From Pseudoduganella dura (GTDB lineage Bacteria; Pseudomonadota; Gammaproteobacteria; Burkholderiales; Burkholderiaceae_D), in NCBI RefSeq assembly GCF_009727155.1, contig NZ_WNWM01000002.1:2728001-2792000 (forward strand): a stretch of DNA of 64,000 nt. The letters run 5' to 3'. Under the pieces are notes generated by a model. The model was not told where the DNA came from, did not search any database, and saw nothing but the letters and a program-made list of their open reading frames with translations. Below are positions 21,574-37,615 of this stretch, in pieces. A program made the translations under genes and the position numbers. Positions within the stretch are counted from its first letter, which is position 1. Every line of letters starts with the position of its first letter.

Positions 21574-21646
21574 GCTGGCAATGGTGCCGGTCCGCCGCGG
21601 CGGTCCGGCCGGTTTTCGTCAACGCCGTAACCAGATCCGCAAATCC

Positions 21647-21698
21647 GGGACGGACCCTGTTTTCCAGGAAAATTTTCCTGCAAAACAGGGTCCGTCCC
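21647..21698. repeat. 52-bp intergenic palindromic element, copy A
   Basis: Outer arms GGGACGGACCCTGTTTT and complement (17 bp, perfect) enclose a 14-bp perfect inner palindrome AGGAAAATTTTCCT. Exact layout is 13+7+12+7+13. It is followed by TATTTTTT on the plus strand and lies between convergent ttcA and the M14 peptidase, so it can serve as a terminator. It shares architecture with copies at 34601 and 37547. Confidence 0.9.
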
Positions 21699-21744
21699 TA
21701 TTTTTTATGCCTGATACCTCAGCGGTGCCGGGCACGGTTTTCCT

Positions 21745-23502
21745 TCAGAATTTCTGCGCCGTGCGGTACACCGGATACAGGTTGAGCCGTTCGTCCCAGG
21801 AAGCATGGCGCCGGGCGAAGAAGTCCAGCCGGGCACGCGGGCTTTTCGCGAAATCGGCATCGTTGTCCAGCCGGTCCCTGAACGCGGCGGCCACGGCCGG
21901 GTCCTTCAGCTGTTCGCGGGCCACTTCTTCGGCCACGTATTCTTCCATGTACTCCTTGCGTTCGAACGCCGGGGTGAACATGCCCCATGCCAGCAGCGAG
22001 TCGACACTTCGCGGTTCCAGCATCGTCATCACGAGGCGCGCCTTCGGCTGGGCGATCGGCACGAACAGCGCGCCCTTCCCCACTTCGCGTGCCTCGGCGC
22101 TCCATGCGCCATCCACCGCCAGCATCTGGTGCCCTTCGAACGATTGCGGGGTCAGCTTCGTCTTCGTGGCACGGAACGCTTCCACCTCCACCTTGCCGGG
22201 TGCGGCGGCCAGCACCTTGAACGACACGCCGTGCTGCGTGAGCTTCGCGCCGACGATGGCCGCCTGCGCGGCGGGCACGATGTAGCCGCCGCCCGGCGCC
22301 TTGATGGTCAGGTCGGGCACGATCTCTTCGCGCAGCGGCACCTGCCACAGCTGCGGTTTCGTTTCATCGTATTGCGTCCAGGTGCCGCCCGACACATCGG
22401 AAGGCACGCGCTTGTATTCGTAGCCGCGGAAATCGATCGTCTGCACCTTGTCGGTGGTCTTGTAGCTCAGCGGGAAATCCTGCCCGGCGAGCGCCGCCGC
22501 GCGCGCATCGGCGGCCAGCGCGGTCTTGCGCCACCCGGCGCCATGCGTTGCAACCTGGTCCATCAGCGACACGATCGTGTTGTACGTGATTTTTACACGC
22601 GTGGGGTAATCCTTCCACGAATGCGTTTCGACCAGCATGCCGAAGCGGTTGCGCAGGTAGAAATAGCCGGTCGAAAAGCGCGCCGTGGACATCTCGTCCA
22701 CGAAGCCCGATTGCGGCTCATCCGTCTTCGCGAACGAAATGTAGAAGTGCTTGGGGTCCGATCCCTGCTTCCTCAGGTCGCCGATCACGTTGTCGCGCAG
22801 CGCGGTGCCGGCTTCGCGCAGGGCAGCGTCGCCGCCATGCACCGGTTCCACCTGGATCGACACATCCGGCTCGAACTTGGCGCCGTCGGTCACGTGCAGG
22901 TCGATGTAGGCCAGCGGATCCCACCCGTTCACCAGTGCCAGCATGGCCTGCATCTCGGGCGCGTCGGCCTTCACGTAATCGCGGTTCAGGTTGTAGTTCT
23001 GCGCCGTGACGCGCCAGCCCATCTCCACCGGGCCGCGCTGGTTCGGCCGGTTGTTCGGGCCGAAGCGCTCGTGGCCATCCACGTTGAACACGGGGACGAA
23101 CAGCAGCACCTGCCTGTCGAGTGCACCGGGCAGTATCTTGCCTTCCAGTGCCCGGCGCAGCGCCAGGAAGCCGGCATCCTTGCCGTCGATCTCGCCGGCG
23201 TGGATGCCGCCCTGCACCAGCAGCACCGGGATGTTCTTCTTCTTCGCACCTTCGGCCGTCAGCGCGCCGCTCTTCGACACGGCCAGCGCCAGCATCGGCC
23301 GCCCTTCCGGCGTGCGGCCGAACTCGAAGCAGCGCACCGCCTTCGGGTAAGCCTTCTGGAAGTCCGCGCACAGCCTGATCACTTCGTCGTAGCGGCCGGT
23401 GGCCTGGAAGCCGGAACGCTCCGAGACAGTGGTGAGATCGGGCGCGGCATGGGCCAGGGGAACAGCGGCGAGCAAGGCAAGCGACAGTGCGGTGCGAATC
23501 AT
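21745..23502 (-). CDS. Secreted M14-family zinc carboxypeptidase
   Basis: 585 residues with a clear Sec signal peptide (MIRTALSLALLAAVPLAHA, cleavage near 19-20). The M14 zinc site is seen as HAGE (GGIHAGEIDGK) and a downstream His in IDLHVTDGAKFEPD; the NYNLNRDY segment matches the substrate-binding Asn-Arg region. It probably acts in the periplasm or outside the cell. Monocistronic: flanked by a terminator upstream (23536-23580) and a palindrome downstream. Exact substrate unknown. Confidence 0.9.
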   Translation of the reverse strand: MIRTALSLALLAAVPLAHAAPDLTTVSERSGFQATGRYDEVIRLCADFQKAYPKAVRCFEFGRTPEGRPMLALAVSKSGALTAEGAKKKNIPVLLVQGGIHAGEIDGKDAGFLALRRALEGKILPGALDRQVLLFVPVFNVDGHERFGPNNRPNQRGPVEMGWRVTAQNYNLNRDYVKADAPEMQAMLALVNGWDPLAYIDLHVTDGAKFEPDVSIQVEPVHGGDAALREAGTALRDNVIGDLRKQGSDPKHFYISFAKTDEPQSGFVDEMSTARFSTGYFYLRNRFGMLVETHSWKDYPTRVKITYNTIVSLMDQVATHGAGWRKTALAADARAAALAGQDFPLSYKTTDKVQTIDFRGYEYKRVPSDVSGGTWTQYDETKPQLWQVPLREEIVPDLTIKAPGGGYIVPAAQAAIVGAKLTQHGVSFKVLAAAPGKVEVEAFRATKTKLTPQSFEGHQMLAVDGAWSAEAREVGKGALFVPIAQPKARLVMTMLEPRSVDSLLAWGMFTPAFERKEYMEEYVAEEVAREQLKDPAVAAAFRDRLDNDADFAKSPRARLDFFARRHASWDERLNLYPVYRTAQKF

Positions 23503-23535
23503 CTACAGGGCTCCGGAAAGGGTCGGTGGACCGAT

Positions 23536-23580
23536 AAAAAAATAGCGGAACCCGGCACGGATCGCGTGCCGGGTTCCGCT
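23536..23580 (-). terminator. Intrinsic terminator downstream of the indolepyruvate oxidoreductase gene
   Basis: A perfect 16-bp stem (AGCGGAACCCGGCACG and complement, 5-nt loop) is followed on the minus strand by seven U residues. It ends the transcript of the gene finishing at 23808 and insulates the M14 peptidase. Apart from this structure no gene is seen in 23503-23807. Confidence 0.88.
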
Positions 23581-23807
23581 ACGGCTGAAGCATTATAGAC
23601 TTGCAGCCTGCCCTTCGCGCCCGGCCGGGCCGGAAACATTGGCATGGGAGGTCCTTGTGGGAACCGAACCATACCAAGCGTGTTGTCTTTTTTGAACGAA
23701 GGCTTTCGCAGCTGCTTATGCAAGCTTTGCCGACGCATGAGCCGGCTGAATGGCTTGCATTTTGTCAGCCACGCGGAGATGCCGGAACGGCATCCCCTGC
23801 CGGTGAA

Positions 23808-26800
23808 TCAGGCCGCGTGCGGCGTGACGGCCGATGGGCGTGCAATACCGGGCCCGGTGGCTTGCCCAGTGCCGTGATACGCCGCCAGCAGCGAGGCCTC
23901 CTTCTGCTTCGCCGCCTTCAGGTGCCGCTCCTTCACATGCCCATAGCCGCGGATGTCTTCCGGGATACGGGCGATCGCCACTGCCGTGTCCAGGTTCTCC
24001 TTCGTGAGCTTCGGCAGCAGCGCCAGCACGGTCTCGCGGTAGCTGCCGATCAGCGCACGCTCCATTTTCCGCTCGGCCGTATGGCCGAACACGTCGAGCG
24101 GCGTGCCGCGCAAGCCCTTCAGCCTGGCCAGAAAGCCGAACACCTGCCGCATCCACGGGCCGAACTGCTGCTTGACCAGGTGGCCGTCCTTGTCCTTCTT
24201 CGCCAGCAGCGGCGGCGCGAGGTGGTACTTCACCTCGTAGTCGCCCTCGAACATGCCTTCGATCTTCTGCCGGAACGCGGGATCGGCGTGCAGGCGCGCA
24301 ACCTCGTACTCGTCCTTGTACGCCATCAGCTTGTACAGGTAGCGTGCCACTGCTTCGGTCAGTTTCTTCGTGCCCAACGGCTCCTCGGCGCGGCGCACCT
24401 GGGCGATGAAGTCCGTGTACTGGCGGGCATAGGCGGCGTTCTGGTACGCCGTCAGCAGCTCGACGCGCCGGGTCATCATCTCGTCCAGCGTTTGCGTGCG
24501 CTTGAATTCGATGACCTGCGCCGGCGCCGCCAGCTTCGTCACCGCGGCGAGGTCGTGCGCCGCATAGCGGCCCCAGTTGAACGCAGCCTTGTTGAACGCG
24601 ACGGACACGCCGTTCAGTTCGATCGCCTTCACCAGCGCCGCTTCCGACAGCGGTACATGGCCCTTCTGGAAGCAGTAGCCCAGCATGAACATGTTGGTGG
24701 CGATCGCGTCGCCCATCAGCGCGGTGGCGATGCGGCCCGCATCGATGAAGTCCACCCGGTCGTTGCCGCACGCACGCACGATTTCCGCCTGCGAGCCCAC
24801 GCCGGGGAACTGCCAGTCCGGGTTCTTCACGAACGCCGCCGTGGTGGCGCCGGTGGAATTGATCGCGGCCCAGCTGCGGCCTTCGCCCATCCGGCTCAAC
24901 GCATCGCGGCTGGCGGTCACGATCTGGTCGCAGCCGATCACCAGGTCGGCGCTGCCGGTGCCCACGCGCGTGGAATGCAGATCCGCCTGACGGTCGGCCA
25001 GCCGCACGTGCGACATTACCGGCCCGCCCTTCTGTGCCAGCCCGCTCATGTCCAGCACCACGGCGCCCTTGTTCTCCACGTGTGCCGCCACCGCCAGGAT
25101 CTGGCCGACCGTGACGACGCCGGTGCCGCCGATGCCGGTGATCAGGATGCCATACGGCTGCGCGGTCGATGGCAGCGCCGGCGCGGGCAGTGCCGGCACT
25201 TCGCCGCCTGCCGCGGCCTTCTTCGGCTTCTTCAGCGTGCCGCCTTCGACGGTGACGAAACTGGGGCAAAAGCCCGACACGCACGAATAATCCTTGTTGC
25301 AGCTGGACTGGTTGATCTGGCGCTTGCGGCCCAGCTCCGTTTCCAGCGGCTCCACGGACAGGCAGTTCGACTGCACCGAGCAGTCGCCGCAGCCTTCGCA
25401 CACGGCCTCGTTGATGACCACGCGCCTGGCCGGGTCCGGGTACTCGTTGCGTTTCCGGCGGCGCCGTTTCTCGGAGGCGCAGGTCTGGTCGTAGATCATC
25501 GCCGACACGCCGGGCATGTCGCGCAGTTCCTTCTGCACATCCATCAGTTCCGAACGGTGGCGCACCGTCACGCCCGGCGCCCAGGCGTAATCGTCCGGGT
25601 ATTTCCCCGGATCGTCGGTGACGACGATGATCGGCGCGACGCCCTCGGCGGCGATCTGCCGCGAGATCATGCCGGGGTCCAGCGGGCCGTCGAATGCCTG
25701 ACCGCCCGTCATCGCCACCGCGTCGTTGAACAGGATCTTGTAGGTGATGTTGACCTTGGCGGCCACGGCGGCGCGGATCGCCAGGATTCCGGAGTGGAAG
25801 TAGGTGCCGTCGCCGAGGTTGGTGAACACGTGCTTTTCGTTGGTGAACGGCGCCTGGCCCACCCACGTGACGCCTTCCGCGCCCATGTGCGTGAAGGTCG
25901 ACGTTTCGCGGTCCATCCACAGCACCATGTAGTGGCAGCCGATGCCGGCCAGCGCGCGCGAACCTTCCGGCACCTTGGTCGACGTGTTGTGCGGGCAGCC
26001 CGAGCAGAAATACGGCGTGCGGTCGGTTTCCGGATTGGCTTTCAGCGGCACGTTCTTCAGCACCAGTTCCTTCGCTTCCAGGAAGGCGATGCGTTCCTGC
26101 ACGCGCTTCGCGACCGGGTGGCCGGCGCAGTAGTGCGAGATGCGGCTGGCGATGGCGCGGGCGATCTGCGCCGGGTTCAGCTCATACGTGGCCGGCAGCA
26201 GCCAGTCGCCGTGGCCGCTGCGGTGCTGGTTCGACCATTCGCCGGTGTCGTCGAACTTGCCGACCACGCGGGGGCGCTGGCCATCCGGCAGGTTGTACAG
26301 CTCTTCCTTCAGCGCGTATTCGAGGATCTGGCGCTTTTCCTCCACCACCAGGATCTCGTCGAGCCCGCGCGCGAATTCATGCACGCCGTCCGCTTCCAGC
26401 GGCCACGTCATGCCGATCTTGTACAGGCGGATACCGATGTCGGCGGCGGCCTGCTCGTCGATGCCCAGGTCGGCCAGCGCCTGGCGCGTGTCGAGGTACG
26501 ACTTGCCGGCGGTGATGATACCGATCTTCGGCGTCGGGCTGTCCCAGATAATCTTGTTGAGCTTGTTGGCGCGGCAGTACGCCAGCGCGGCGTACCACTT
26601 GTAACTGTTCATCCGCACTTCCTGGTCGAGCACCGCGTCGGGCCAGCGGATGTTCAGGCCGCCCGGCGGCAGCTCGAAGTCGTCCGGCATGGCGATCTGC
26701 ACGCGGTCGGGGTCGAAGTCGATCACGGCGCCCGATTCGATGATGTCCGTCACGCACTTCATCGCCACCCACAGGCCGGTGTAGCGGCTCATCGCCCAGC

Positions 26801-27383
26801 CGTGCAGGCCGTAGTCGATGTATTCCTGCACCGACGACGGATACAGCACCGGAATGCCGCAGGCGGCCAGGATGTGATCGGACTGGTGCGCGGTGGAAGA
26901 GGACTTTGCCGCGTGGTCGTCGCCGGCCAGCACCAGCACGCCGCCGTGCCGGGCGGTGCCGGCGTTGTTGGCGTGCTTGAACACGTCGCCGCAGCGGTCC
27001 ACGCCGGGGCCCTTGCCGTACCACATCGAGAAGACGCCGTCGTACTTCGCGTCGGGGAACAGGTTGGTTTGCTGCGTGCCCCAGACGGACGTGGCGGCCA
27101 GGTCTTCGTTCATGCCGGGGTGGAACTTGACGTGATGCGCGTCGAGGTATTTTTTCGCCTTCACTGCCGTCATGTCGATGGAGGTGACGGGCGAGCCCCG
27201 GTAGCCGGTGATGAAGCCGGCCGTGTTCAGCCCGGCCTGCAGGTCGCGTTCGCGCTGCAGCATCGGCAGGCGGATCAGCGCCTGGGTGCCGGTGAGGAAC
27301 GCGCGGCCGCGTTCCAGGGTCCATTTGTCGTCGAGGGTGATGTCCTCTTTGCCTAGCTCCGTACCCTTGTGAGGTGCGTTCAT
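23808..27383 (-). CDS. iorAB: Indolepyruvate ferredoxin oxidoreductase, fused alpha-gamma type
   Basis: 1191-residue fusion that decarboxylates aryl-2-oxoacids to aryl-acetyl-CoA with ferredoxin as acceptor. The N-terminal pyrimidine/core region is followed by the TPP-binding CSGCPHN segment, ferredoxin-type clusters (CEGCGDCSVQSNC and a later C-x4-C-x4-C) and the gamma domain beginning ITGIGGTGVVTVGQ. The start ATG at 27381-27383 is chosen for GGAG 7 nt upstream and the conserved MNAPHKG start; an upstream in-frame codon adds non-homologous sequence. It lies 101 nt after hppD and likely shares control with it. Confidence 0.93.
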   Translation of the reverse strand: MNAPHKGTELGKEDITLDDKWTLERGRAFLTGTQALIRLPMLQRERDLQAGLNTAGFITGYRGSPVTSIDMTAVKAKKYLDAHHVKFHPGMNEDLAATSVWGTQQTNLFPDAKYDGVFSMWYGKGPGVDRCGDVFKHANNAGTARHGGVLVLAGDDHAAKSSSTAHQSDHILAACGIPVLYPSSVQEYIDYGLHGWAMSRYTGLWVAMKCVTDIIESGAVIDFDPDRVQIAMPDDFELPPGGLNIRWPDAVLDQEVRMNSYKWYAALAYCRANKLNKIIWDSPTPKIGIITAGKSYLDTRQALADLGIDEQAAADIGIRLYKIGMTWPLEADGVHEFARGLDEILVVEEKRQILEYALKEELYNLPDGQRPRVVGKFDDTGEWSNQHRSGHGDWLLPATYELNPAQIARAIASRISHYCAGHPVAKRVQERIAFLEAKELVLKNVPLKANPETDRTPYFCSGCPHNTSTKVPEGSRALAGIGCHYMVLWMDRETSTFTHMGAEGVTWVGQAPFTNEKHVFTNLGDGTYFHSGILAIRAAVAAKVNITYKILFNDAVAMTGGQAFDGPLDPGMISRQIAAEGVAPIIVVTDDPGKYPDDYAWAPGVTVRHRSELMDVQKELRDMPGVSAMIYDQTCASEKRRRRKRNEYPDPARRVVINEAVCEGCGDCSVQSNCLSVEPLETELGRKRQINQSSCNKDYSCVSGFCPSFVTVEGGTLKKPKKAAAGGEVPALPAPALPSTAQPYGILITGIGGTGVVTVGQILAVAAHVENKGAVVLDMSGLAQKGGPVMSHVRLADRQADLHSTRVGTGSADLVIGCDQIVTASRDALSRMGEGRSWAAINSTGATTAAFVKNPDWQFPGVGSQAEIVRACGNDRVDFIDAGRIATALMGDAIATNMFMLGYCFQKGHVPLSEAALVKAIELNGVSVAFNKAAFNWGRYAAHDLAAVTKLAAPAQVIEFKRTQTLDEMMTRRVELLTAYQNAAYARQYTDFIAQVRRAEEPLGTKKLTEAVARYLYKLMAYKDEYEVARLHADPAFRQKIEGMFEGDYEVKYHLAPPLLAKKDKDGHLVKQQFGPWMRQVFGFLARLKGLRGTPLDVFGHTAERKMERALIGSYRETVLALLPKLTKENLDTAVAIARIPEDIRGYGHVKERHLKAAKQKEASLLAAYHGTGQATGPGIARPSAVTPHAA

Positions 27384-27414
27384 GGGTTGTCTCCAATATT
27401 CTTCGAAAAGCTTC

Positions 27415-27450
27415 AAGCCGGCGCGCCCTCTGACGGGGCGCTGCCGGCTT
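27415..27450 (-). promoter_or_regulatory. Hairpin between hppD and iorAB
   Basis: Bulged stem of AAGCCGGC plus GCGCCC pairing with GGGCGC plus GCCGGCTT (14 bp, one bulged A, 7-nt loop). Only TTTTC follows further on, so it would be a weak terminator or attenuator at most. It may set the hppD:iorAB expression ratio. Confidence 0.5.
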
Positions 27451-27484
27451 TGCATTGTGTCGCCGAACTGATCTGTGCCTGTGC

Positions 27485-28615
<1,131 letters not shown>

Positions 28616-28703
28616 TGCTTGTCTCCTTGTTCGAATAGCGAAAAGTATAGGCTTCGAGGCGGAGAATTAAATTGCCAACCTGTCCCGACCTTGCGGATTT
28701 TGA

Positions 28704-28716
28704 GCAATAATATTGC
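28704..28716. promoter_or_regulatory. Candidate Lrp/AsnC operator in the hppD-lrp intergenic region
   Basis: GCAATAATATTGC is an inverted repeat with 5-bp arms and an AT-rich centre in the divergent promoter region, about 27 nt before the regulator ATG. Lrp-family sites are usually AT-rich dyads in this position. Inference from form and place only. Confidence 0.4.
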
Positions 28717-28742
28717 GTCGACAGGACATTTATGGAGATTTG

Positions 28743-29270
28743 ATGACGAAGATCGCGCTGGACAAGACAGACCGGAAAATTCTTTCCATCCTGCAGGAGG
28801 ATGGCCGCCTGTCGAACCAGGACGTGGCCGAGCAGGTCAGCCTGTCGCCGTCGCCATGCCTGCGCCGCATCAAGCGACTGGAAGAGGAAGGCGTGATCCG
28901 CCAGTACGTGGCCCTGCTCGATCCGGACAAGATCGGCCTGGGCCTGCTGGCCTATGTCAACGTGCGGCTGGAAAAGCACAGCGACGCCGCCGCCGTGGCG
29001 CACAGCACGGCCAGGGCCCTGGGCGCCTTGCCGGGCACGGTATCGCCGCGCGAGGATTTCGCCGTGGCGGTCGAGGGCTGGCCGGAAGTGGTCGCCTGCT
29101 ATGCGATGACGGGCGAGATGGATTACCTGCTGCGCGTGCACGTGGAAGACATGGACCACTTCTCGCGCTTCATGATGGCCACGCTGCTGCGGCACCCGGC
29201 CGTGCTGGACGTGAAATCGAGCTTCGCGCTGCAGCGCATAAAAGATACGACGGCCCTGCCGCTCGTTTGA
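28743..29270 (+). CDS. Lrp/AsnC-family transcriptional regulator
   Basis: 175 residues from MTKIALDKTDRKILSILQED. The N-terminal winged HTH (about 5-62, SNQDVAEQVSLSPSPCLRRI) is followed by the RAM ligand-binding domain (about 70-150, with AMTGEMDYLLRVHVED). The start at 28743 has GGAG 6 nt upstream. Divergent from hppD, so it probably senses an aromatic amino acid or its keto acid and controls hppD/iorAB; this is inferred from position. Confidence 0.92.
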   Translation: MTKIALDKTDRKILSILQEDGRLSNQDVAEQVSLSPSPCLRRIKRLEEEGVIRQYVALLDPDKIGLGLLAYVNVRLEKHSDAAAVAHSTARALGALPGTVSPREDFAVAVEGWPEVVACYAMTGEMDYLLRVHVEDMDHFSRFMMATLLRHPAVLDVKSSFALQRIKDTTALPLV

Positions 29271-29276
29271 CTGATT

Positions 29277-29951
29277 TTACTTCTTTCGCCGCGGCAGCAG
29301 GTCGAGCAGCTTGACGGCGCGCCGCACATTGGCCTTCAAGGCGTAATCGATCGTGGCCAGCTGCTCCTGCATCGCTTCCTGCAGCACGCTGGAAGGATCG
29401 GCCGGGCCCAGCTTCAGGTAGGCATCCGCCTCGCCGTAGTCGCGGTGGATTTCCATCCCCGCCTTCTTCGCGATGTGCATCATGATCTGGTTCGACGACA
29501 GGCAGTGCATTGTCAGCGTGTCGACATCGTGGTTGCGGCACACGATCGCGGCGCGCTCGAACAGCTTCGAGCCGATGCCCAGCCCGCGCGCCGATTTCAA
29601 TACCGAGACGCCGAATTCTGCCACGCGGTCCTTCTCCGTCATGCCATCCTTTTCCGGCTGCCGCTCCGCGAATCCCAGGTGCCCCACGGCAACGAGGCGG
29701 AACACGCGGTTGTAGACGCCGAACACGATGTCGCGCCCGAAGTCGATGCTGTCGACGTATTTCGTCACCTGCTCGTCCGACAGGTGCGAGCCGAAGCGCA
29801 GCAGCCGGTCGCGCCCTTCGATCTGCAGGAAGTGGCGCACCATGCGGCGGCGGTCCCGTTCGCGCAGTTCCTTGATGGGAATCGTCGGCCGCGGCTCGGG
29901 GCGGCCCAGCCACTTGTGCAGCGGGTTGCGGAACAGGTTCAGGCGGGGCAT
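29277..29951 (-). CDS. GNAT-family acetyltransferase
   Basis: 224 residues. A GNAT core is visible about residues 50-170, with the acetyl-CoA loop ARGLGIGSKLFERA and the later HCLSSNQIMMHIAKKAGM helix. The N-terminal LNLFRNPLHKWLG and basic C-terminal RRKK tail are outside the core. Its ATG overlaps the cca stop by 1 nt (TGATG), so it is the last gene of a GST-cca-GNAT unit. Substrate not predictable. Confidence 0.85.
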   Translation of the reverse strand: MPRLNLFRNPLHKWLGRPEPRPTIPIKELRERDRRRMVRHFLQIEGRDRLLRFGSHLSDEQVTKYVDSIDFGRDIVFGVYNRVFRLVAVGHLGFAERQPEKDGMTEKDRVAEFGVSVLKSARGLGIGSKLFERAAIVCRNHDVDTLTMHCLSSNQIMMHIAKKAGMEIHRDYGEADAYLKLGPADPSSVLQEAMQEQLATIDYALKANVRRAVKLLDLLPRRKK

Positions 29952-31213
29952 CAGCCCTCCCCGCCCGGGTCGTCCGGTTCGTCGTGCCGGGCCAGTGCCT
30001 GGCGTACCGCGCGCACGCGGGCTTCGCGCACCATGTCCGGAATGCGCCCGGGCTGATCGCCACAGGCCAGCGCGATCTCGCCCGCATTGATGCCGCGCGC
30101 GGCGGCCAGCGCCCGCTCCAGGTAATCACGCTGCGGGAACGGCGCGTCGCGGAACGAGCGGGCGGCGCCCTCGCGGCCGCGGGCATCGCATTCCGACACC
30201 TGCAGCAGCTGGACGAAGCGCGCCGGCTTGCGGAAACCGTCGCTGCGTTCGAACAGCTTGACAATCGTGTTGCAGCGCAGCTCCAGCGCCCGGCTTACAT
30301 TGCCGTGTTCGCGCGCCGCCAGCACGGCCAGGTCGCGGCATTCGGTCGGCACCTTCAGCCGCGCGCAGACATCCTTGACCAGTGCGGCGCCGAGGCCTTC
30401 GTGGCCGTGATGGGCCGGCCACCTGTCGGGCGGCGTGGCGCCCTTGCCCAGGTCGTGCAGCAGCGCGGCGAAGCGCACCGGCAGGTCGTAGCCCTGTGCG
30501 GCCGCGTAGTCGGCCACTTGTTCCATGTGGATGCCGGTATCGATTTCCGGGTGCCACTGCTCCGGCTGCGGCACGCCCCACAGGCGGTCCAGTTCCGGCA
30601 CGATACGGGCCAGCGCGCCGCAATCGCGCAGCACCTGCAGCATGCGCGACGGCCGCCTTTCCATCAGGCCGCGCGACAGTTCCTGCCACACGCGCTCGGG
30701 CACCAGCGCATCGACTTCGCCCTCATCGACCATCCGGCGCATCAGCGCGTTGGTTTCGGGCGCCACCATGAAATCGGCATAGCGGGCGGCGAAGCGGGCC
30801 ACGCGCAGGATGCGCACCGGGTCTTCGGCAAACGCATCGGAAACGTGCCGGAACACGCGGCGGGCGATGTCGCCCTGGCCGTCGAACGGATCGGTCAGCG
30901 TGCCGTCTTCGGCGCGGGCGATGGCGTTGATCGTCAGGTCGCGGCGCACCAGGTCCTGCTCCAGCGTCACGTCGGGCGCCGTGTGGAACACGAAGCCCGT
31001 GTAGCCGGGCGCGGTCTTGCGCTCGGTGCGGGCCAGCGCGTATTCCTCGTGCGTGTCCGGGTGCAGGAATACCGGAAAATCCTTGCCCACGGCGCGAAAG
31101 CCCTGCCGCACCATCTGTTCCGGCGTGGCGCCGACGACCACGTGGTCATGGTCCTTGACGGGCAGTCCCAGCAGCGTGTCGCGGACGGCACCGCCAACGA
31201 CGAAAGTCTTCAT
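29951..31213 (-). CDS. cca: CCA-adding multifunctional tRNA nucleotidyltransferase
   Basis: 420 residues. Adds or repairs the 3' CCA of tRNA. The nucleotidyltransferase head shows VGGAVRD (residues 6-12) and the metal-binding pair Asp21/Asp23 (KDHDHV), followed by RRDLTINAIA. The C-terminal half contains the HD-type phosphohydrolase segment (FAALLHDLGKG), as in E. coli-type class II enzymes. The ATG overlaps the GST stop by 4 nt. An upstream in-frame extension would run into the GST gene, so 31213 is the start. Confidence 0.96.
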   Translation of the reverse strand: MKTFVVGGAVRDTLLGLPVKDHDHVVVGATPEQMVRQGFRAVGKDFPVFLHPDTHEEYALARTERKTAPGYTGFVFHTAPDVTLEQDLVRRDLTINAIARAEDGTLTDPFDGQGDIARRVFRHVSDAFAEDPVRILRVARFAARYADFMVAPETNALMRRMVDEGEVDALVPERVWQELSRGLMERRPSRMLQVLRDCGALARIVPELDRLWGVPQPEQWHPEIDTGIHMEQVADYAAAQGYDLPVRFAALLHDLGKGATPPDRWPAHHGHEGLGAALVKDVCARLKVPTECRDLAVLAAREHGNVSRALELRCNTIVKLFERSDGFRKPARFVQLLQVSECDARGREGAARSFRDAPFPQRDYLERALAAARGINAGEIALACGDQPGRIPDMVREARVRAVRQALARHDEPDDPGGEG

Positions 31214-31923
31214 TCGCCGTCCGCGCCTTCGTCCGCGCTGTTGCTCACTTCTGCATGCGCCTCCTCGATCCAGCGCGCCACGGCGGGATGCCGCGTGATC
31301 CGTTCGCAATAGGCCGACAATGCCGGCGGCAGCGCCACGCCATAGGTGTTGAAGCGCGTGACGACCGGCGCGAAGAACGCGTCCGCCAGCGAAAAGTCGC
31401 CGAACAGGTACTCGTTGTGGCCGAAGCGGCACAGGCACTCTTCCCAGATTTCGCTGACGCGGCCGATATCGGCCTGCGTGTCCGGGGTGCGGCCCTGGCC
31501 CGGCAGGCGGGCGGTGATGTTCATCGGCAGCGTGCTGCGCAGGCTCGCGAAGCTCGAGTGCATTTCGGCGCAAATGGAACGCGCCGTGGCGCGCGCCGCC
31601 ACGTCCTGCGGCCACAGGTGCTTGTCGGGGAACTGCTCGGCCAGGTATTCGCAGATCGCCAGGCTGTCCCAGATCGTCATGTCGCCGGCCAGCAGCACGG
31701 GCACGCGGCCGCTGTGCGTGTAGCGGGCGATATTGCCGGAAGTGCCCGGCAGGTCGAGCTTCACGCGCACCTCGGTGAACGGAATGCCGAAGGCGGTCAT
31801 TGCCACCCAGGGCCGCATCGACCAGGAAGAAAGATTCTTGTTGCCGATGACGAGGGTAAGGCCCGGCTCGCGGGCGGCGGCCAGGGTCTGGCTCAGGGTA
31901 GGGTCGAGATCGATCGTTTGCAT
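31210..31923 (-). CDS. Glutathione S-transferase family protein
   Basis: 237 residues. An N-terminal thioredoxin-like domain (about 22-100) has the NKNLSSWSMRPW stretch with the candidate catalytic Ser, cis-Pro in GRVPVLL and the glutathione-contact DSLAICEYL. An all-helical C-terminal domain follows, with FGDFSLADAFFAPV. Cytosolic. First gene of the GST-cca-GNAT unit; substrate unknown. Confidence 0.9.
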   Translation of the reverse strand: MQTIDLDPTLSQTLAAAREPGLTLVIGNKNLSSWSMRPWVAMTAFGIPFTEVRVKLDLPGTSGNIARYTHSGRVPVLLAGDMTIWDSLAICEYLAEQFPDKHLWPQDVAARATARSICAEMHSSFASLRSTLPMNITARLPGQGRTPDTQADIGRVSEIWEECLCRFGHNEYLFGDFSLADAFFAPVVTRFNTYGVALPPALSAYCERITRHPAVARWIEEAHAEVSNSADEGADGE

Positions 31924-31952
31924 GGGTGAAAAGGTAATGGGAGCGCGCCGGA

Positions 31953-33980
31953 TCAGCGGCTCGAGAAACTGGTCTGCTGCGGTGCCTGCTCGCGCGGCCC
32001 CTTCTCGCGCAATTCGCTGTCGGAATAGCCCTTCGGCGTGACGATGCCCAGGCGCGCCTTCATCGATTGCGGCCGGCCTTCGAACAGCGCCGCATAGTAG
32101 GTGGCGTTGGTCATCACGTTCTTCACGTAGCCGCGGGTTTCCGAATACGGAATCGACTCGATGAACACGGTGGCGTCCATCGGCTTGTTCAGCGCCGAGC
32201 GCCAGGCGCGCAGCCGGCCCGGGCCGGCGTTGTAGGCGGCGGTGGCCAGTACCTGCGAGCCATCCATGCTGCCCAGGACCATGTTCATGTAGTTGGCCCC
32301 CAGCAGGATGTTGGTGCGCACGTCCGTCAGCATGTCCTGCACGAAATTCGTCAGGCCGATCTTGTTGGCGACCCAGCGCCCGGTGGACGGCATCACCTGC
32401 ATCAGGCCGGACGCGCCGGCGCTCGACTGGGCGTTCATCACGAAGCGCGATTCCTGGCGAATCAGGCCATACACCCAGGCGCGGTCGAGGCCGAGGGTGC
32501 TGGTGGTGGGCCGCATGATTTCATCGTGCGGCGCCGGGTAGCGGTGGGTGTAGTCGGCCAGCGCGCGGGTGCGTTCGGACGTGTACACCATGCGATCGAG
32601 GATATGGTGCTGGCGCGCATATTCGGCCACGGCGATCAGTTCGCGGTCCGACAGGTGGCGCACTTCCCAGTTCCATTCGCGCATGCCTTCGAAGCGCAGC
32701 CGCATGTCGAAGAACTTCAACGCGCGGCGGATGCCCGGGTTGGCGGCGATCGCGGCGATTTCGGCCGCCGTCACCGGTGCGCCGGGCGCCGGAATGCTGA
32801 CCGTGCGGCCCAGTTCCTCGGCGGCCAGCAGGCCGTAGTAATCCTCGCGGTCGGCGATGCTCTGGTACAGGAACTGCGCTTCCGGCGTCATGCCGCCGGC
32901 CAGCGCGACCGCGGTGCGGGCCTGCCAGTACACCCAGGTGGGATCCTGCCGCAGTTGCGGCGGCATCGCGGCAATGTAGTCGCGCACCTGCTGCCAGTTG
33001 CCGTCGCGCAGCGCGTAGCGGGTGCGCCACTGGTGCTGGTCGATCGACAGGGGCGCGCCGTTGGCACGGCGCCAGTACTCGGACGTTTCCGGCGCCACCA
33101 CATAGGACGCGGGCAACGCGATGTTGGCCCAGCCGATCGCCTGTTCCTGCGCAGTGAGCTGCGGCAGCGCCTTCTGCAGCGCCAGCACCGACAGCTTGAT
33201 GCTGGTGCGCGCGGCGCGGCCCAATGCAACCAGGAACACTTCGCGGTCGGCCTTGGTGCCGCCGACGCCCTTGGCCAGCACCACGGCCGGCACGTCGATC
33301 GCCTGGGCGATTTTCTTGTCGGAGCCGTTGAGCAGCATGATCGTGCGGCGCGCCGGCCCGGTGGCATTCGTTTCGCCGGCCAGGCGCACCTGCGCCCACA
33401 GGTCATCCTGGGTGAACTGGCCGGTCTGCGCCAGCGACGCGACCAGCGCGGTGCAGCCATCGCCGTAATACGGCGGATAGATCAGCAACGCCCGCGCTTC
33501 GGCGGCCACGTTTTCGCCTTTCGACAGGCGCGACAGCAGGCCATAGCACTTGACCTGGGTATCGTCCTTCAGCACGAACAAGGGAAATTGCTGGTCGAAC
33601 ATCGCCCAGTCGCCCCTGCGGCCCAGTTCGAGCAGCCAGTCGTTGCGCAGGCGATCGGCGATCGCGCTGCCTTCGTGGCGCTGCAGGAAGCCCAGGATCT
33701 CCGCCGTGCTGGCGGCAGTGAAACGGGATTTGAGCCGATAATAGTCGACGTACGAAGGAATGGCGTAGTCGGCGAGGCGCGCGGCGTAGAACTCGGCCTT
33801 CGCGGCATCGTTGCGGCGCACGGAATCGCGCAGCAGCAGGAACGCATCGTCCTCCTTGCGGCTGTCGCCCAGGTCCTGCGGGATCGCGAGCGGCGTGATG
33901 GCGCAGGAAATCGCGAGCAGTGCGCCGGCTATCCATTTCGACGGGAAAATCAAGATGCGGCTCTCAGAAACGGCTCTCAA
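31953..33980 (-). CDS. Soluble-type lytic murein transglycosylase (Slt family)
   Basis: 675 residues. An N-terminal membrane or signal segment (WIAGALLAISCAITPLAI), a long alpha-superhelical U-domain (about 40-480) and a C-terminal goose-lysozyme-like SLT domain with the catalytic Glu in GLIRQESRFVMNAQSSAGA and GLMQVMPSTG, YNAGPGR and YVKNV motifs. It cleaves peptidoglycan to 1,6-anhydro products in the periplasm. The start is uncertain: TTG at 33980 lies in a 13-bp duplication only 8 nt from the divergent fthC ATG; TTG at 33953, with GAGAG 7 nt upstream, would give 666 residues and still keep the signal segment. Confidence 0.9.
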   Translation of the reverse strand: MRAVSESRILIFPSKWIAGALLAISCAITPLAIPQDLGDSRKEDDAFLLLRDSVRRNDAAKAEFYAARLADYAIPSYVDYYRLKSRFTAASTAEILGFLQRHEGSAIADRLRNDWLLELGRRGDWAMFDQQFPLFVLKDDTQVKCYGLLSRLSKGENVAAEARALLIYPPYYGDGCTALVASLAQTGQFTQDDLWAQVRLAGETNATGPARRTIMLLNGSDKKIAQAIDVPAVVLAKGVGGTKADREVFLVALGRAARTSIKLSVLALQKALPQLTAQEQAIGWANIALPASYVVAPETSEYWRRANGAPLSIDQHQWRTRYALRDGNWQQVRDYIAAMPPQLRQDPTWVYWQARTAVALAGGMTPEAQFLYQSIADREDYYGLLAAEELGRTVSIPAPGAPVTAAEIAAIAANPGIRRALKFFDMRLRFEGMREWNWEVRHLSDRELIAVAEYARQHHILDRMVYTSERTRALADYTHRYPAPHDEIMRPTTSTLGLDRAWVYGLIRQESRFVMNAQSSAGASGLMQVMPSTGRWVANKIGLTNFVQDMLTDVRTNILLGANYMNMVLGSMDGSQVLATAAYNAGPGRLRAWRSALNKPMDATVFIESIPYSETRGYVKNVMTNATYYAALFEGRPQSMKARLGIVTPKGYSDSELREKGPREQAPQQTSFSSR

Positions 33981-33983
33981 AAA
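33958..33983. repeat. 13-bp tandem duplication at the slt/fthC divergent starts
   Basis: Two 13-bp units (33958-33970 and 33971-33983) read CGGCTCTCA(G/A)AAA on the plus strand with one mismatch. The units contain GAGAG on the minus strand, a possible ribosome-binding site for slt, and lie just before the fthC ATG. Confidence 0.85.
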
Positions 33984-33988
33984 GTGAC

Positions 33989-34594
33989 ATGACCAGCGAT
34001 CCTAGAATAACACGCCTGACTGAAGGGCTACCACCCGCAAGCGTGCCGACGGCCGCGGCCGGCAAGGCCGCATTGCGCAAGCAACTGTTGGCGGCACGCC
34101 GCAACCTGCCGGCGGAAACGCGCGCGCAATGGGATGCCGGCATCTGCCGGCACATCGTCGAATGGTGGCACGACGCGCGGGTGGATGCGCTCGGCGTCTA
34201 CTGGCCGCTGCGCGACGAGCCGGACCTGCACCCCGCCTACGCCGAGCTGGCGCGGCTGGGCGTGCGGCTGCTGCTGCCGGTCGTGCTGCAGCGCGATGCG
34301 CCGCTCGACTTCGCCGCGTGGGCGATCGGCGAGCCGCTGGTCAAAGATGCGATGGGCATCGCCGTGCCCGCCGAACTGCGCATCGAGCCTTATCCGCCGG
34401 CACTGCTGGTGCCCTGCCTGGGCTTCAATGCCGCCGGCTACCGGCTGGGGTACGGCGGCGGCTTCTATGACCGCACGCTGGAAAAACAGCCGCGGCCGGC
34501 CACGGTGGGCATCGCCTACGCATGCCTTGCCGCCGAGTTCGGCAGCGACGGGCACGACATCGCGCTGGACCGGATCATTACCGAGGCGGGCTAG
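33989..34594 (+). CDS. fthC: 5-formyltetrahydrofolate cyclo-ligase
   Basis: 201 residues from MTSDPRITRLTEG. Converts 5-formyl-THF to 5,10-methenyl-THF with ATP. The N-terminal ALRKQLLAARRNL basic helix, the VPCLGFNAAGYRLGYGGG loop and FYDRTL phosphate-binding region are intact. Divergent from slt with almost no spacer. The palindromic element copy B begins at the base after its stop. It links functionally to metF on the other strand. Confidence 0.93.
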   Translation: MTSDPRITRLTEGLPPASVPTAAAGKAALRKQLLAARRNLPAETRAQWDAGICRHIVEWWHDARVDALGVYWPLRDEPDLHPAYAELARLGVRLLLPVVLQRDAPLDFAAWAIGEPLVKDAMGIAVPAELRIEPYPPALLVPCLGFNAAGYRLGYGGGFYDRTLEKQPRPATVGIAYACLAAEFGSDGHDIALDRIITEAG

Positions 34595-34658
34595 AAACCC
34601 GGGACAGACCCCTGTTTCCAGGAACTATTTCCTGAAACCCCAGGTCTGTCCCGGGTTT
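34595..34658. repeat. 52-bp intergenic palindromic element, copy B (16-bp perfect outer arms)
   Basis: Core 34601-34652 is exactly 52 bp. The perfect arms AAACCCGGGACAGACC and complement extend from 34595 to 34658. The inner segment AGGAACTATTTCCT keeps GGAA and TTCC at the same positions as copies A and C. It lies between convergent fthC and metF and could act as a bidirectional terminator. Confidence 0.9.
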
Positions 34659-34708
34659 TGTCACTTCTCCTGCTGCTGTCACAACGCTGCCGTGATCGCG
34701 GCTGATTC

Positions 34709-34726
34709 AAAAACAGGGACGGATTT
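34709..34726. repeat. Possible decayed fragment of the palindromic element
   Basis: AAAACAGGGACGGATTTTT shares the AAAACAGGG and GGGACGGA strings of copy A and ends in a T-run just before the metF stop. It looks like a collapsed or internally deleted relic, but 18 bp is too short to be sure. Confidence 0.35.
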
Positions 34727-35557
34727 TTACTTCACCAGCCGCTGCCACAGCGCCGTCGTGGCGGCCGCCTGGTTCATGCTGTAGAAGTGCAGGCCGGGGG
34801 CGCCGCCGTCGAGCAGGCGCTCGCCCAGACCGGTCACCACGTCGAGGCCGAACGCCTTGATTGACGCGGTGTCGTCGCCGAAGCTGGCCAGCTTGAGCCG
34901 CACCCAGCGCGGGATCTCGGCGCCGCACATGTCGGAAAAACGCATCAGCTGCGTGTAGTTCGTGATCGGCATGATGCCCGCCACGATCGGCACGGTAACG
35001 CCGGCTTTCTGCGCCGCGTCGACGAACTGGAAGTACGCGTCGGCATTGTAGAAATACTGCGTGATCGCGGCATCGGCGCCGGCGTTCACCTTGCGCACGA
35101 AGGCGTCCAGGTCCGACTGCGGCGATTTTGCCTGCGGATGCACTTCCGGGTAGGCGGCCACTTCGATGTGGAACCAGTCGCCCGTTTCGGCGCGGATGAA
35201 TTCCACCAGCTCGTTGGCATAGCGGAACTCGCCGGCCGCGCCGTAGCCGCTGGGCAGGTCGCCGCGCAGCGCGACGAGGCGCTTGATGCCGTGCGACTTG
35301 TATTCGCCCAGGATGGCGCGGATCGAGTCGCGCGTGCCGCCCACGCACGACAGGTGCGGCGCGGCTTCCTCACCGGCGGCCAGGATGTCGAGCACGGTAT
35401 CGAGCGTGCCGCGCTGGGTGGTGCCGCCGGCGCCGAACGTTACGGAAAAATACTTGGGATGCAGCTCGGACAGCTTGGCGCGCGTGGCACGCAGCTTTTC
35501 CGCGCCTTCCGCCGTTTTCGGCGGAAAGAATTCGATACTAAAATTATGGTCAGCCAT
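34727..35557 (-). CDS. metF: 5,10-methylenetetrahydrofolate reductase
   Basis: 276-residue FAD enzyme making 5-methyl-THF for methionine synthesis. It starts MADHNFSIEFFPPKT with the conserved EFFPPK, then VTFGAGGTT, LRGDLP and AITQYFYN. The length matches the short bacterial type. Its 5' end overlaps the upstream membrane protein gene by 8 nt, so it is in the ahcY-holin-metF unit, probably partly under the SAH riboswitch through read-through of a terminator after ahcY. Confidence 0.97.
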   Translation of the reverse strand: MADHNFSIEFFPPKTAEGAEKLRATRAKLSELHPKYFSVTFGAGGTTQRGTLDTVLDILAAGEEAAPHLSCVGGTRDSIRAILGEYKSHGIKRLVALRGDLPSGYGAAGEFRYANELVEFIRAETGDWFHIEVAAYPEVHPQAKSPQSDLDAFVRKVNAGADAAITQYFYNADAYFQFVDAAQKAGVTVPIVAGIMPITNYTQLMRFSDMCGAEIPRWVRLKLASFGDDTASIKAFGLDVVTGLGERLLDGGAPGLHFYSMNQAAATTALWQRLVK

Positions 35558-35900
35558 CGGCGTCTTTCAACAACAGGGAAGAGAGGGCCCAGGAGATCAC
35601 GCTGTACAGCAATGCGCCGCCGACCGCCGCCCAAAAACTCGTCACGTTGAACCCGCTCACCCACTGCGATACCAGCCAGAACGTGAAGCCGTTGACGATG
35701 AAAATGAACAGGCCCAGCGACAATACCGTTACCGGCAGGGTCAGCAGGAGCAGCAGTGGGCGGATCAGCGTATTCACCAGTCCCAGGACGAGCGCCGCGA
35801 TCAGGGCTGCGCCGACGCTCGTGACGTCGACGGAATGCATCAGGTAAGGCACTGCGAACAGGGCCGCGGCATTGATAATCCAGGTCAGGACCAAACGCAT
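35550..35900 (-). CDS. Small four-helix membrane protein (phage holin superfamily IV / YvlD-like)
   Basis: 116 residues with four hydrophobic segments (about 4-22, 28-50, 55-80 and 86-108). The pattern LINTLIRPLLLLLTLPV-like (seen as LVNTLIRPLLLLLTLPVT) is a hallmark of this family. These proteins are common in non-phage chromosomal settings and have no established function. It overlaps metF by 8 nt and follows ahcY by 73 nt with a terminator between. No other phage genes are near, so it is not a prophage marker. Confidence 0.85.
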   Translation of the reverse strand: MRLVLTWIINAAALFAVPYLMHSVDVTSVGAALIAALVLGLVNTLIRPLLLLLTLPVTVLSLGLFIFIVNGFTFWLVSQWVSGFNVTSFWAAVGGALLYSVISWALSSLLLKDADG

Positions 35901-35939
35901 GAATAAGCCTAAAAGCGAAATGAATTGAAAATGCGGTGC

Positions 35940-35965
35940 AAAAAAAGGCCGGCTGCGCCGGCCTT
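35940..35965 (-). terminator. Intrinsic terminator after ahcY
   Basis: 9-bp perfect stem AAGGCCGGC/GCCGGCCTT (3-nt loop) followed by seven U on the minus strand, starting 9 nt after the ahcY stop. It should reduce transcription into the downstream membrane protein and metF genes. Confidence 0.85.
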
Positions 35966-35973
35966 CGTACCGA

Positions 35974-37389
35974 TCAATAGCGGTAGTGTTCCGGCTTGTA
36001 CGGGCCTTCGACCTTCACGTTGATGTAGGCGGCCTGCTCTTCCGTCAGCTCGCTCAGCTGCGCGTTCAGCTTTTTCAGCTGCAGGCGGGCCACTTTCTCG
36101 TCCAGGTGCTTCGGCAGCGTGTAGACGCCGACCGGGTACTTGTCCTTGTGCTGGAACAGTTCGATCTGGGCGATGGTCTGGTTCGCGAACGACGAGCTCA
36201 TCACGTAGGACGGGTGGCCCGTGCCGCAACCCAAATTCACCAGGCGGCCTTCGGCCAGCAGGATGATGCGTTTGCCATCCGGGAAGATCACGTGATCGAC
36301 CTGCGGCTTGATGTTTTCCCACTGGTACTTCTTCAGTGCCGCGACATCGATCTCGTTGTCGAAGTGACCGATATTGCAGACGATCGCCTGGTCCTTCATC
36401 TTCAGCATGTGCTGTTCGGTGAGGATGTGGTAATTGCCGGTGCAGGTGACGAAGATGTCGCCGTGTTCTGCGGCGTAATCCATCGTCACGACGCGGTAGC
36501 CTTCCATCGCGGCCTGCAGCGCGCAGATCGGATCGATCTCGGTGACCCACACCTGGGCCGACAGCGCGCGCATCGCCTGCGCCGAGCCCTTGCCCACGTC
36601 GCCGTAGCCGGCGATCACGGCCACCTTACCGGCGATCATCACGTCGGTCGCGCGCTTGATGCCGTCGACCAGCGATTCGCGGCAGCCGTACAGGTTGTCG
36701 AACTTCGATTTCGTCACGGAATCGTTGACGTTGATTGCCGGGAAGGCCAGCTTGCCGTCCTTGTGCATCTGGTACAGGCGGTGCACGCCGGTGGTGGTTT
36801 CCTCGGTCACGCCCAGGATGGCCGGCAGGCGCTTCGAATACCACGTGGCATCCTTCGCCAGGCGGGCCTTGATCGCGTTGAACAGGCAGATTTCTTCTTC
36901 CGAGCCAGGATTGTCCAGCACCGACGCATCCTGCTCGGCGCGCGCGCCCAGGTGCAGCAACAGCGTGGCGTCGCCGCCATCGTCCAGGATCATGTTCGAG
37001 TACACGCCTTCGCCCGGCCATTCGAAGATGCGGTGGGTGTAGTCCCAGTATTCATCCAGCGTTTCGCCCTTGATGGCGAACACCGGAGTACCGGCCGCGG
37101 CGATCGCGGCGGCGGCGTGGTCCTGGGTCGAGTAGATGTTGCACGAAGCCCAGCGCACCTGCGCACCCAGTGCTTCCAGCGTGCGGATCAGCACGGCGGT
37201 CTGGATCGTCATGTGCAGCGAACCGGTGATGCGGGCGCCCTTGAGGGGCTGCGCGGCGGCGAATTCTTCCTGGATCGCCATCAGGCCAGGCATTTCCGTT
37301 TCCGCGATCTTGATTTCTTTTTCGCCCCATGCGGCCAGGCCGATGTCGGCAACGATGAAGTCTTGGGAGTCTTTGAGTACGGCGTTCAT
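35974..37389 (-). CDS. ahcY: S-adenosyl-L-homocysteine hydrolase
   Basis: 471 residues. Cleaves SAH to homocysteine and adenosine using tightly bound NAD. The NAD loop is [17 protein letters not shown], the catalytic region [13 protein letters not shown] holds the conserved Lys and Asp, and the C-terminus KPEHYRY is the family signature. The ATG at 37387-37389 has AAGGAGG 4-5 nt upstream and begins [16 protein letters not shown]. The 5' leader is an SAH riboswitch, giving product-of-methylation feedback. Confidence 0.99.
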
Positions 37390-37420
37390 CACGCCTCCTT
37401 TCAATGTTGAAAAAAGTTGA

Positions 37421-37488
37421 CGTGAGCGCGGTTGCAGAAGTTCCGAGCCTGGCGGATTCGAACGATCCGTCGCAACGCTCCTCGGAGA
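37421..37488 (-). promoter_or_regulatory. SAH riboswitch
   Basis: On the minus strand the leader runs CTCCGAGGAGCGTTGCGAC, later CCAGGCTCGG, then TGCAACCGCGCTCACG. CCGAG pairs with CTCGG (P1 type), GAGCG pairs with CGCTC, and the GCNNCG and GCAACCGCGC segments match the SAH-riboswitch pattern known from betaproteobacterial ahcY leaders. It ends 31 nt before the ahcY ATG. Binding of SAH is expected to turn ahcY on. A -10-like TATAGA at 37497-37502 lies just upstream. Confidence 0.92.
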
Positions 37489-37496
37489 ACAGGCAT

Positions 37497-37502
37497 TCTA
37501 TA
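37497..37502 (-). promoter_or_regulatory. Probable -10 element of the ahcY promoter
   Basis: TATAGA (TATAGAAT) sits between the metK terminator and the riboswitch, so transcription would start about at the first riboswitch base. The matching -35 position falls inside the terminator arm and is poor (GAAGCG). Confidence 0.45.
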
Positions 37503-37536
37503 ACAAAAAACCGAAGCATCGCTTCGGTTTTTTGTT
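37502..37536. terminator. Bidirectional hairpin terminator between metK and ahcY
   Basis: 16-bp perfect arms (AACAAAAAACCGAAGC and complement, 3-nt loop) give a GC-rich stem top and six U on either strand. It ends metK transcription coming from upstream on the minus strand. Confidence 0.9.
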
Positions 37537-37542
37537 GGCTAA

Positions 37543-37602
37543 AACCGGGGTCAGACCCCAGTTTTTGGAAATATTTCCTAAATTTGGGGTCTGACCCCGG
37601 TT
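37543..37602. repeat. 52-bp intergenic palindromic element, copy C (18-bp perfect outer arms)
   Basis: Core 37547-37598 is 52 bp. The outer arms AACCGGGGTCAGACCCCA and complement are perfect from 37543 to 37602, and the inner dodecamer GGAAATATTTCC is a perfect palindrome. The left arm itself contains GGGGTCAGACCCC, nearly palindromic, so alternative local hairpins are possible. It lies 14 nt after the metK stop. Confidence 0.93.
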
Positions 37603-37615
37603 CTAGAAAAGTTTT

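Follow-up and report, generated by a model that had tools for sequence, protein, structure and literature searches.

What kind of element are the intergenic palindromes seen three times in one stretch of the Pseudoduganella dura genome (6.95 Mb), and how do the sequences of their arms come to differ from copy to copy? The stretch analysed here, which we call the window, is 64,000 nucleotides long and corresponds to C2:2728001-2792000. A sequence-only reading had placed the three palindromes at 21647-21698, 34601-34652 and 37547-37598, outside genes and at transcript ends. The three dyads are real and these coordinates are borne out; all of them rank in the top four inverted repeats listed for the window (I1, I3 and I4), and their folding as RNA lies 7.9 to 10 standard deviations above that of shuffled sequences. 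All three lie outside called genes and each is beside 3' ends: the 21647 and 34601 dyads stand between convergent 3' ends, and the 37547 dyad is just 3' of a minus-strand gene. Pfam identifies the neighbours as a PP-loop protein and an M14 peptidase (21647), 5-FTHF cyclo-ligase and MTHFR (34601), and SAM synthetase and SAH hydrolase (37547).

The three dyads represent different types of arm. The element at 21647..21698 is of type A and has GGGACGGACCCTG arms (type A arm GGGACGGACCC) around a GGAA/TTCC core; a TATTTTTT tract follows 3' of its right arm (21699..21706). The element at 34601..34652, flanked by convergent genes, has imperfect GGGACAGACCCC arms and is a close variant of type A, termed A'. 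At 37547..37598 an inverted pair of GGGGTCAGACCCC arms, the type B arm, encloses GGAAATATTTCC, with an outer half-core and spacer on the left (37534..37546, GTTGGC-TAAAACC) and an outer spacer and weak half-core on the right (37599..37611, GGTTCTA-GAAAAG). Other features were seen near these elements. A solitary half-arm, AAAACAGGGACGGATTTTT, adjoins the 34601 element at 34709-34730 and is perhaps a type A remnant, and a 24-bp palindrome, GCCGGTCCGCCGCGGCGGTCCGGC, lies at 21586-21609, close to the 21647 element; GGCGGTCCGGC stretches similar to this palindrome stand in for one arm at 3592458, 3750996 and 4782195. The sole Rfam match above gathering score between 20000 and 40000 was an SAH riboswitch (RF01057, 37417-37489, minus strand, 61.1 bits against a gathering score of 37), which is 5' of the SAH hydrolase gene and near the 37547 element. 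MicroRNA families were rejected for the hairpins, their Rfam scores being far under the gathering scores.

Further copies, for which a search had been suggested, were found across the genome. A strict pattern recovered 28 copies, and no match was found for its reversed form, which served as the control; the 34601 element is not one of the 28. Because a mixed alignment of types A and B fell out of register, a covariance model was built for each of these main arm types; at E 0.01 the two together gave at least 64 separate dyads, of which 16 came from the type B model alone, 26 from the type A model alone and 22 from both, a lower bound obtained from 150 first-look candidates scored per model. 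The fixed length of 52 bp proposed for the family does not hold. Measured from GGG to CCC, 25 of the 28 strict copies are 50 bp long, one is 51 bp and two are 52 bp; the 21647 element is one of those two, and the 37547 element reaches 52 bp only if one extra G/C pair is counted. Type A (GGGACGGACCCTG...CAGGGTCCGTCCC) is a near-perfect palindrome, mostly of 50 bp, bordered by A and T tracts that typically read AAAAATA / TATTTTT (31 arms). Across 46 type B arms the half-core comes back outside the arm, as TTgCCtAAAACC before it and GgTTTTtGGAAA after it. Type B thus has no boundary at 52 bp and belongs to an array that repeats about every 39 bp. By arm class the dyads comprise 22 B/B, 15 A/A, four D/D (GGGACGTACCC), three A'/A', one C/C, one of GTG type and five mixed, and 13 have at least one arm that cannot be classified.

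The suspected intergenic bias is borne out: 62 of the 64 dyads are intergenic in sequence that is 87% coding, as judged by gene calls from codon usage, with 27 long ORFs of the window as the training set. The family is thus dispersed, extragenic and palindromic in the manner of classical REPs, and it joins two inverted repeat units in one hairpin as REPINs do. At the foot of the palindrome, GT[AG]G is absent; the bases before the arm are AAAACC in type B (46 arms) and AAAATA-like in type A (31 arms), and we therefore do not file the family as a classical REP. The 62 intergenic dyads occupy 26 convergent, 27 tandem and nine divergent gaps, set against 36 convergent, 107 tandem and 44 divergent background gaps of at least 60 bp in the same sequence, the elements' own gaps included. 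The nearest gene end is a 3' end in 46 of these dyads and a 5' end in 16.

The sequence-only reading had called the palindromes REP/MITE-like and proposed a search for a linked RAYT gene, and such a link is present. Four Y1_Tnp genes occur in the genome (L016, L017, L018 and L019), all above the Pfam cut-off; with NCBIfam model NF047646 they score 52 to 75 bits, under the cut-off of 80. Type B arms lie to either side of the L017 RAYT (C2:5022146-5022478), and an IS interrupts one of them. The L016 and L018 genes are flanked by GTGCCAGGCAC and GTGTCCGACAC, respectively; at L019 no both-sided 11-bp arm was found. Type A arms stand at none of the four, and a search of this genome with the type A RAYT of sister species G003 returned a best match of 50% identity. 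In G003 itself, this RAYT (212 aa) lies between two complete type A elements. A Y1 transposase gene enclosed by inverted repeats is therefore found in this genome for type B and in G003 for type A. Among the copies of the family those of type A vary least, though this genome has no type A RAYT, and we infer that they are leftovers of a RAYT that was lost.

Other relatives extend the pairing of arm and gene. One RAYT of G032 is flanked by type B arms, is 65% identical to the L017 RAYT and groups with it on the tree; GGGACAGTCCC flanks RAYTs in G003, G020 and Pseudoduganella flava (L040), and GGGACGTACCC and GGGTACGACCC likewise flank RAYTs of relatives. On a tree of 73 RAYTs, 18 of which have a both-sided arm, those that share an arm tend to group together: arm class changes 10 times, against 13.1 with shuffled labels, and 3 of 2000 shuffles were as low, one arm (L224) having been labelled by hand because a longer gene start covers it. 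Three arm types are not single groups on this tree, the exceptions being L259 (GGGTCAGACCC), L194 (GGGTACGACCC) and L224 as against L255/L256 (GGGACGTACCC). Of 517 loci with relatives of the L017 RAYT, the nearest 80 were kept, and an inward GGGGACAGACC-like repeat is present upstream at 58 of these, downstream at 48 and on both sides at 38; at more than 700 bp from the genes, the background of this pattern is 30 occurrences in 113,090 bases. These relatives (L040-L119), from proteobacteria and Desulfobacterota, have a near-constant flank repeat, which reads GGGACAGACC at 63 of the 80 loci.

In translation, the HUH motif of the L017 RAYT reads HIH and its tyrosine lies in RYIELNP. A sequence search of the PDB with this protein returned no entry; the G003 RAYT gave a weak match (E 0.0026) to the E. 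coli TnpA-REP structure 4er8. Pfam finds no C-terminal HTH in L017, and L016 alone has a marginal HTH_28. The RAYT-like gene of L019 (1357-2118, plus strand) has relatives of 62-73% identity in several other genomes; its HUH motif reads QLH and so lacks the first histidine, and its protein is probably not catalytic.

Taken with the layout of the dyads, the arms at these genes make it very probable that these are RAYT-type (Y1/HUH) repeats, short and non-autonomous, either REPINs or TIR dimers. Each would consist of two inverted transposase end repeats around a GGAAA..TTTCC core. Each arm class would be paired with a RAYT lineage, type B with L017 (C2:5.02 Mb), type A with the RAYT of G003 and others with those of further relatives. 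The cognate RAYT would recognise the arm in single-stranded DNA, cut beside it and join copies into intergenic DNA, where they would persist mainly near the 3' ends of genes. Recognition, cutting and mobilisation by a RAYT, with movement aided by the cognate enzyme, are what the arrangement of arms and genes suggests.

The alternative that survives best, which we nevertheless consider unlikely, is that the palindromes are bidirectional intrinsic terminators or mRNA 3'-end stabilisers under selection for RNA structure, their link to transposases being incidental. The hairpins are very stable, A and T tracts border type A, and the preference for 3' ends and the 26 convergent gaps would suit such a role. 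Both strands of each arm were said to have changed together, and this is true of type A and fails for type B. In a type A set of 12 copies (10 distinct rows), covariation was 0.149 against 0.055 in shuffles, paired cells were 97.4% against 92.3%, and cells altered on both sides numbered 10 against 2.8, none of 500 shuffles being as high in any of the three, a level of chance that kinship of copies can also surpass. Slid controls reached 0.047 at most. In 13 type B copies covariation was 0.084 against 0.097, with 411 of 500 shuffles as high; arms and core are almost invariant and the spacers do not co-vary. The loss of pairing in type B spacers speaks against terminators, as does the presence of the same arms at either flank of RAYT genes. 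On the transcribed strand of A-like elements in tandem gaps we counted 19 G-U and 19 A-C pairs, small numbers that show no wobble excess, and a terminator scan, whose rules limit loop size and count up to 20 pairs, listed none of the whole dyads. A secondary role in termination is possible.

That the dyads are regulator binding sites is quite improbable. The arms and core do have the two-fold symmetry of operators, but only nine of the 62 dyads are in divergent gaps, only 16 have a 5' end nearest, one layout is common to several arm classes, and the arms are the flank repeats of RAYTs.

An insertion sequence is also associated with the arms. A 1.33-kb IS4-family element (NF033591, 275.5 bits) has 11 copies found by a search for its ends (C2:2622141-2623474 and others, L404-L425), and all 11 lie within a GGG-N5-CCC arm, which is duplicated exactly, as an 11-bp unit, at 10 of them. 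The target of IS231 is GGG(N)5CCC. The exclusive insertion into such arms could suggest that the palindromes are MITEs of this or another DDE element, but the IS ends (CTGAGCCTACCCC...) are unlike the arms, and the 11 bp duplicated as its target are the arm itself; the palindromes are therefore targets of the IS, and the MITE reading is scarcely tenable. The system also offers an IS4-family element that has these arms as its target in each of the 11 copies found. ISRm22 of Sinorhizobium meliloti, likewise of the IS4 family, is described as inserted in REPs (Tobes and Pareja 2006, PMC1525189) and resembles the present case in lying inside REP-type repeats; here, however, the duplicated target is the 11-bp arm GGG-N5-CCC, in several classes.

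A RAYT-type repeat family of this kind works like systems that are already published, namely TIRYTs, REPINs and orthoswitch seats. The palindromes had been thought to match no named family, and this stands in part. TIRYT/TIRtrons are described as RAYT-like genes with inverted GGGGWSAS flanks and dispersed, often dimeric families, the motif being common to some TIRs and not all (Di Nocera et al. 2013, PMC3733652). The family described here resembles them in having a Y1 gene with GTAG-less inverted flanks and dispersed copies that are often dimers, and the motif fits type B (GGGGTCAG) and type C (GGGGACAG) arms but not those of types A and D. TIRYT/TIRtrons have been linked to subclass 2.1, which is described with a C-terminal HTH (Quentin et al. 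2018, PMC6006769), whereas the L017 RAYT has none by Pfam. To the TIRYT picture as drawn in these sources we add cognate arm classes inside one genus and turnover at the level of single gaps. REPINs are given as inverted doublets, mainly extragenic, that are tied to RAYTs and whose spacer hairpin shows compensatory changes (Bertels and Rainey 2011, PMC3116915). RAYT-tied extragenic inverted doublets are common to both, and type A shares the compensatory changes; unlike the REPINs of that account, the present family lacks the GTAG/GTGG tag, its doublets are about 50 bp and type B continues as a 39-bp periodic array. In open-licence PMC papers, GGGGTCAGACCCC was absent as a literal string, nothing was found for Massilia with repetitive extragenic palindromic and transposase, and the matches listed for related strings seemed off topic by title.

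How do the arm classes come to differ? At E 1e-4 the type A model has matches in 17 of 61 genomes, this one included; five of these genomes have 42-75 strand hits, and 44 genomes have none. Comparison of orthologous loci, as had been proposed, was made at 30 of the 64 dyads by reading the homologous gap in at most three sister genomes each; the sites were 29 of 51 anchors outside the window, hand-picked before the sister sequence was seen, and the three window sites. The gaps are often occupied in sister species too, and often by another arm class. A sister-species dyad was present in 43 of 85 comparisons against 3 of 128 control gaps (homologous gaps, in 144 kb, where this genome has no element), on a first arm list drawn up after viewing sister sequences at these sites, which favours arm finds there. 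With a stricter list, limited to arms that flank a RAYT on both sides, the counts were 28 of 83 and 2 of 128. The contrast is strong in tandem gaps (20/33 vs 0/83 control) and weak in convergent (20/43 vs 1/11, p 0.036) and divergent gaps (3/9 vs 2/34, p 0.054). In the more distant relatives G004 and G011 the 34601 gap is short and has no palindrome.

Among pairs with a strict dyad on both sides, a count that left out eight occupied comparisons with a non-strict dyad in this genome, the class differs in 26 of 35 on the first arm list. As two elements share one gap, removal of the duplicate leaves 41 of 83 occupied, with 24 different-class and nine same-class pairs; the stricter list gives 11 different-class and 10 same-class pairs (11/21 differing). 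Occupied gaps therefore persist while their class turns over, and the extent of the turnover differs with the arm list. This shared occupancy among sister species, with a frequent change of arm class, is new here; no earlier report of gap-by-gap class turnover was found in the open-licence PMC literature.

RAYT genes themselves stand at fixed seats. The L018 RAYT is flanked by GreA/GreB-type and RelA/SpoT-type genes, and both flanks enclose RAYT loci in seven relatives (G003, G012, G013, G028, G032, G034 and G035), while five further relatives match on the RelA/SpoT side only. This genome has GTGTCCGACAC arms at this seat, G003 has type A arms, and two of the five have GGGTACGACCC. Another seat, next to the gene of a GDSL-type lipase, has type B arms in this genome and in G032 but GGGACAGTCCC in G003 and G020. 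Thus one genus holds GTAG-less pairs of RAYT and repeat whose arm class varies among close relatives, even at one seat. In the orthoswitch as described by Nunvar et al. (2013, PMC3686654), RAYTs that share a seat differ in repeat class between related strains, orphan classes stay where a RAYT was lost, and old copies decay in place. Seat RAYTs flanked by differing classes, and orphan classes, are points of likeness; in distinction from that account, the gaps of dispersed copies were compared here one by one, and often held another class.

The reading that we favour for the difference between species, with somewhat better than even confidence, is that permissive gaps were entered independently by different classes, with neither overwriting nor targeting. 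In gaps of up to 400 bp, eight of nine same-class pairs lay within 6 bp of each other inside the gap (3.8 expected), and 11 of 24 different-class pairs did so against 9.1 expected, a number equalled or exceeded in 252 of 1000 simulations. Different-class pairs are thus no nearer than chance, and exact in-place replacement is not supported as a general rule. Against independent entry stand the strongly shared occupancy relative to control gaps and a few sites with the look of exchange at a single point. At 1723072 this genome has a type A element, G003 has GTGACAGACAC and G020 has GGGACAGACCC; this site, 5532378 and 3886446 look like class exchange in place, and at 2404755 a new cluster lies within the old core in G032. 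A more tentative idea, to which we give about a quarter of our belief, is that resident palindromes act as landing pads, so that a change of RAYT or of its arm specificity re-types or overwrites old seats, both of dispersed elements and of RAYTs (for example, the greB-relA/spoT gap). If this were true, occupancy would be inherited while sequence is exchanged. The two causes first suggested for the paired changes, selection on structure or whole-unit replacement, accordingly fare differently: a paired-change signal is seen in type A only, and the shared gaps show class turnover, with exact in-place replacement suggested at single sites and without statistical support. Both the recognition of repeats by these transposases and the choice between turnover in place and re-entry of permissive gaps are now testable. 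In several of the compared gaps a further repeat was seen at L295 and other loci of G032, a GGGGTCAGACCC-GSC-GGGTCTGACCCC dyad within a longer conserved stretch.
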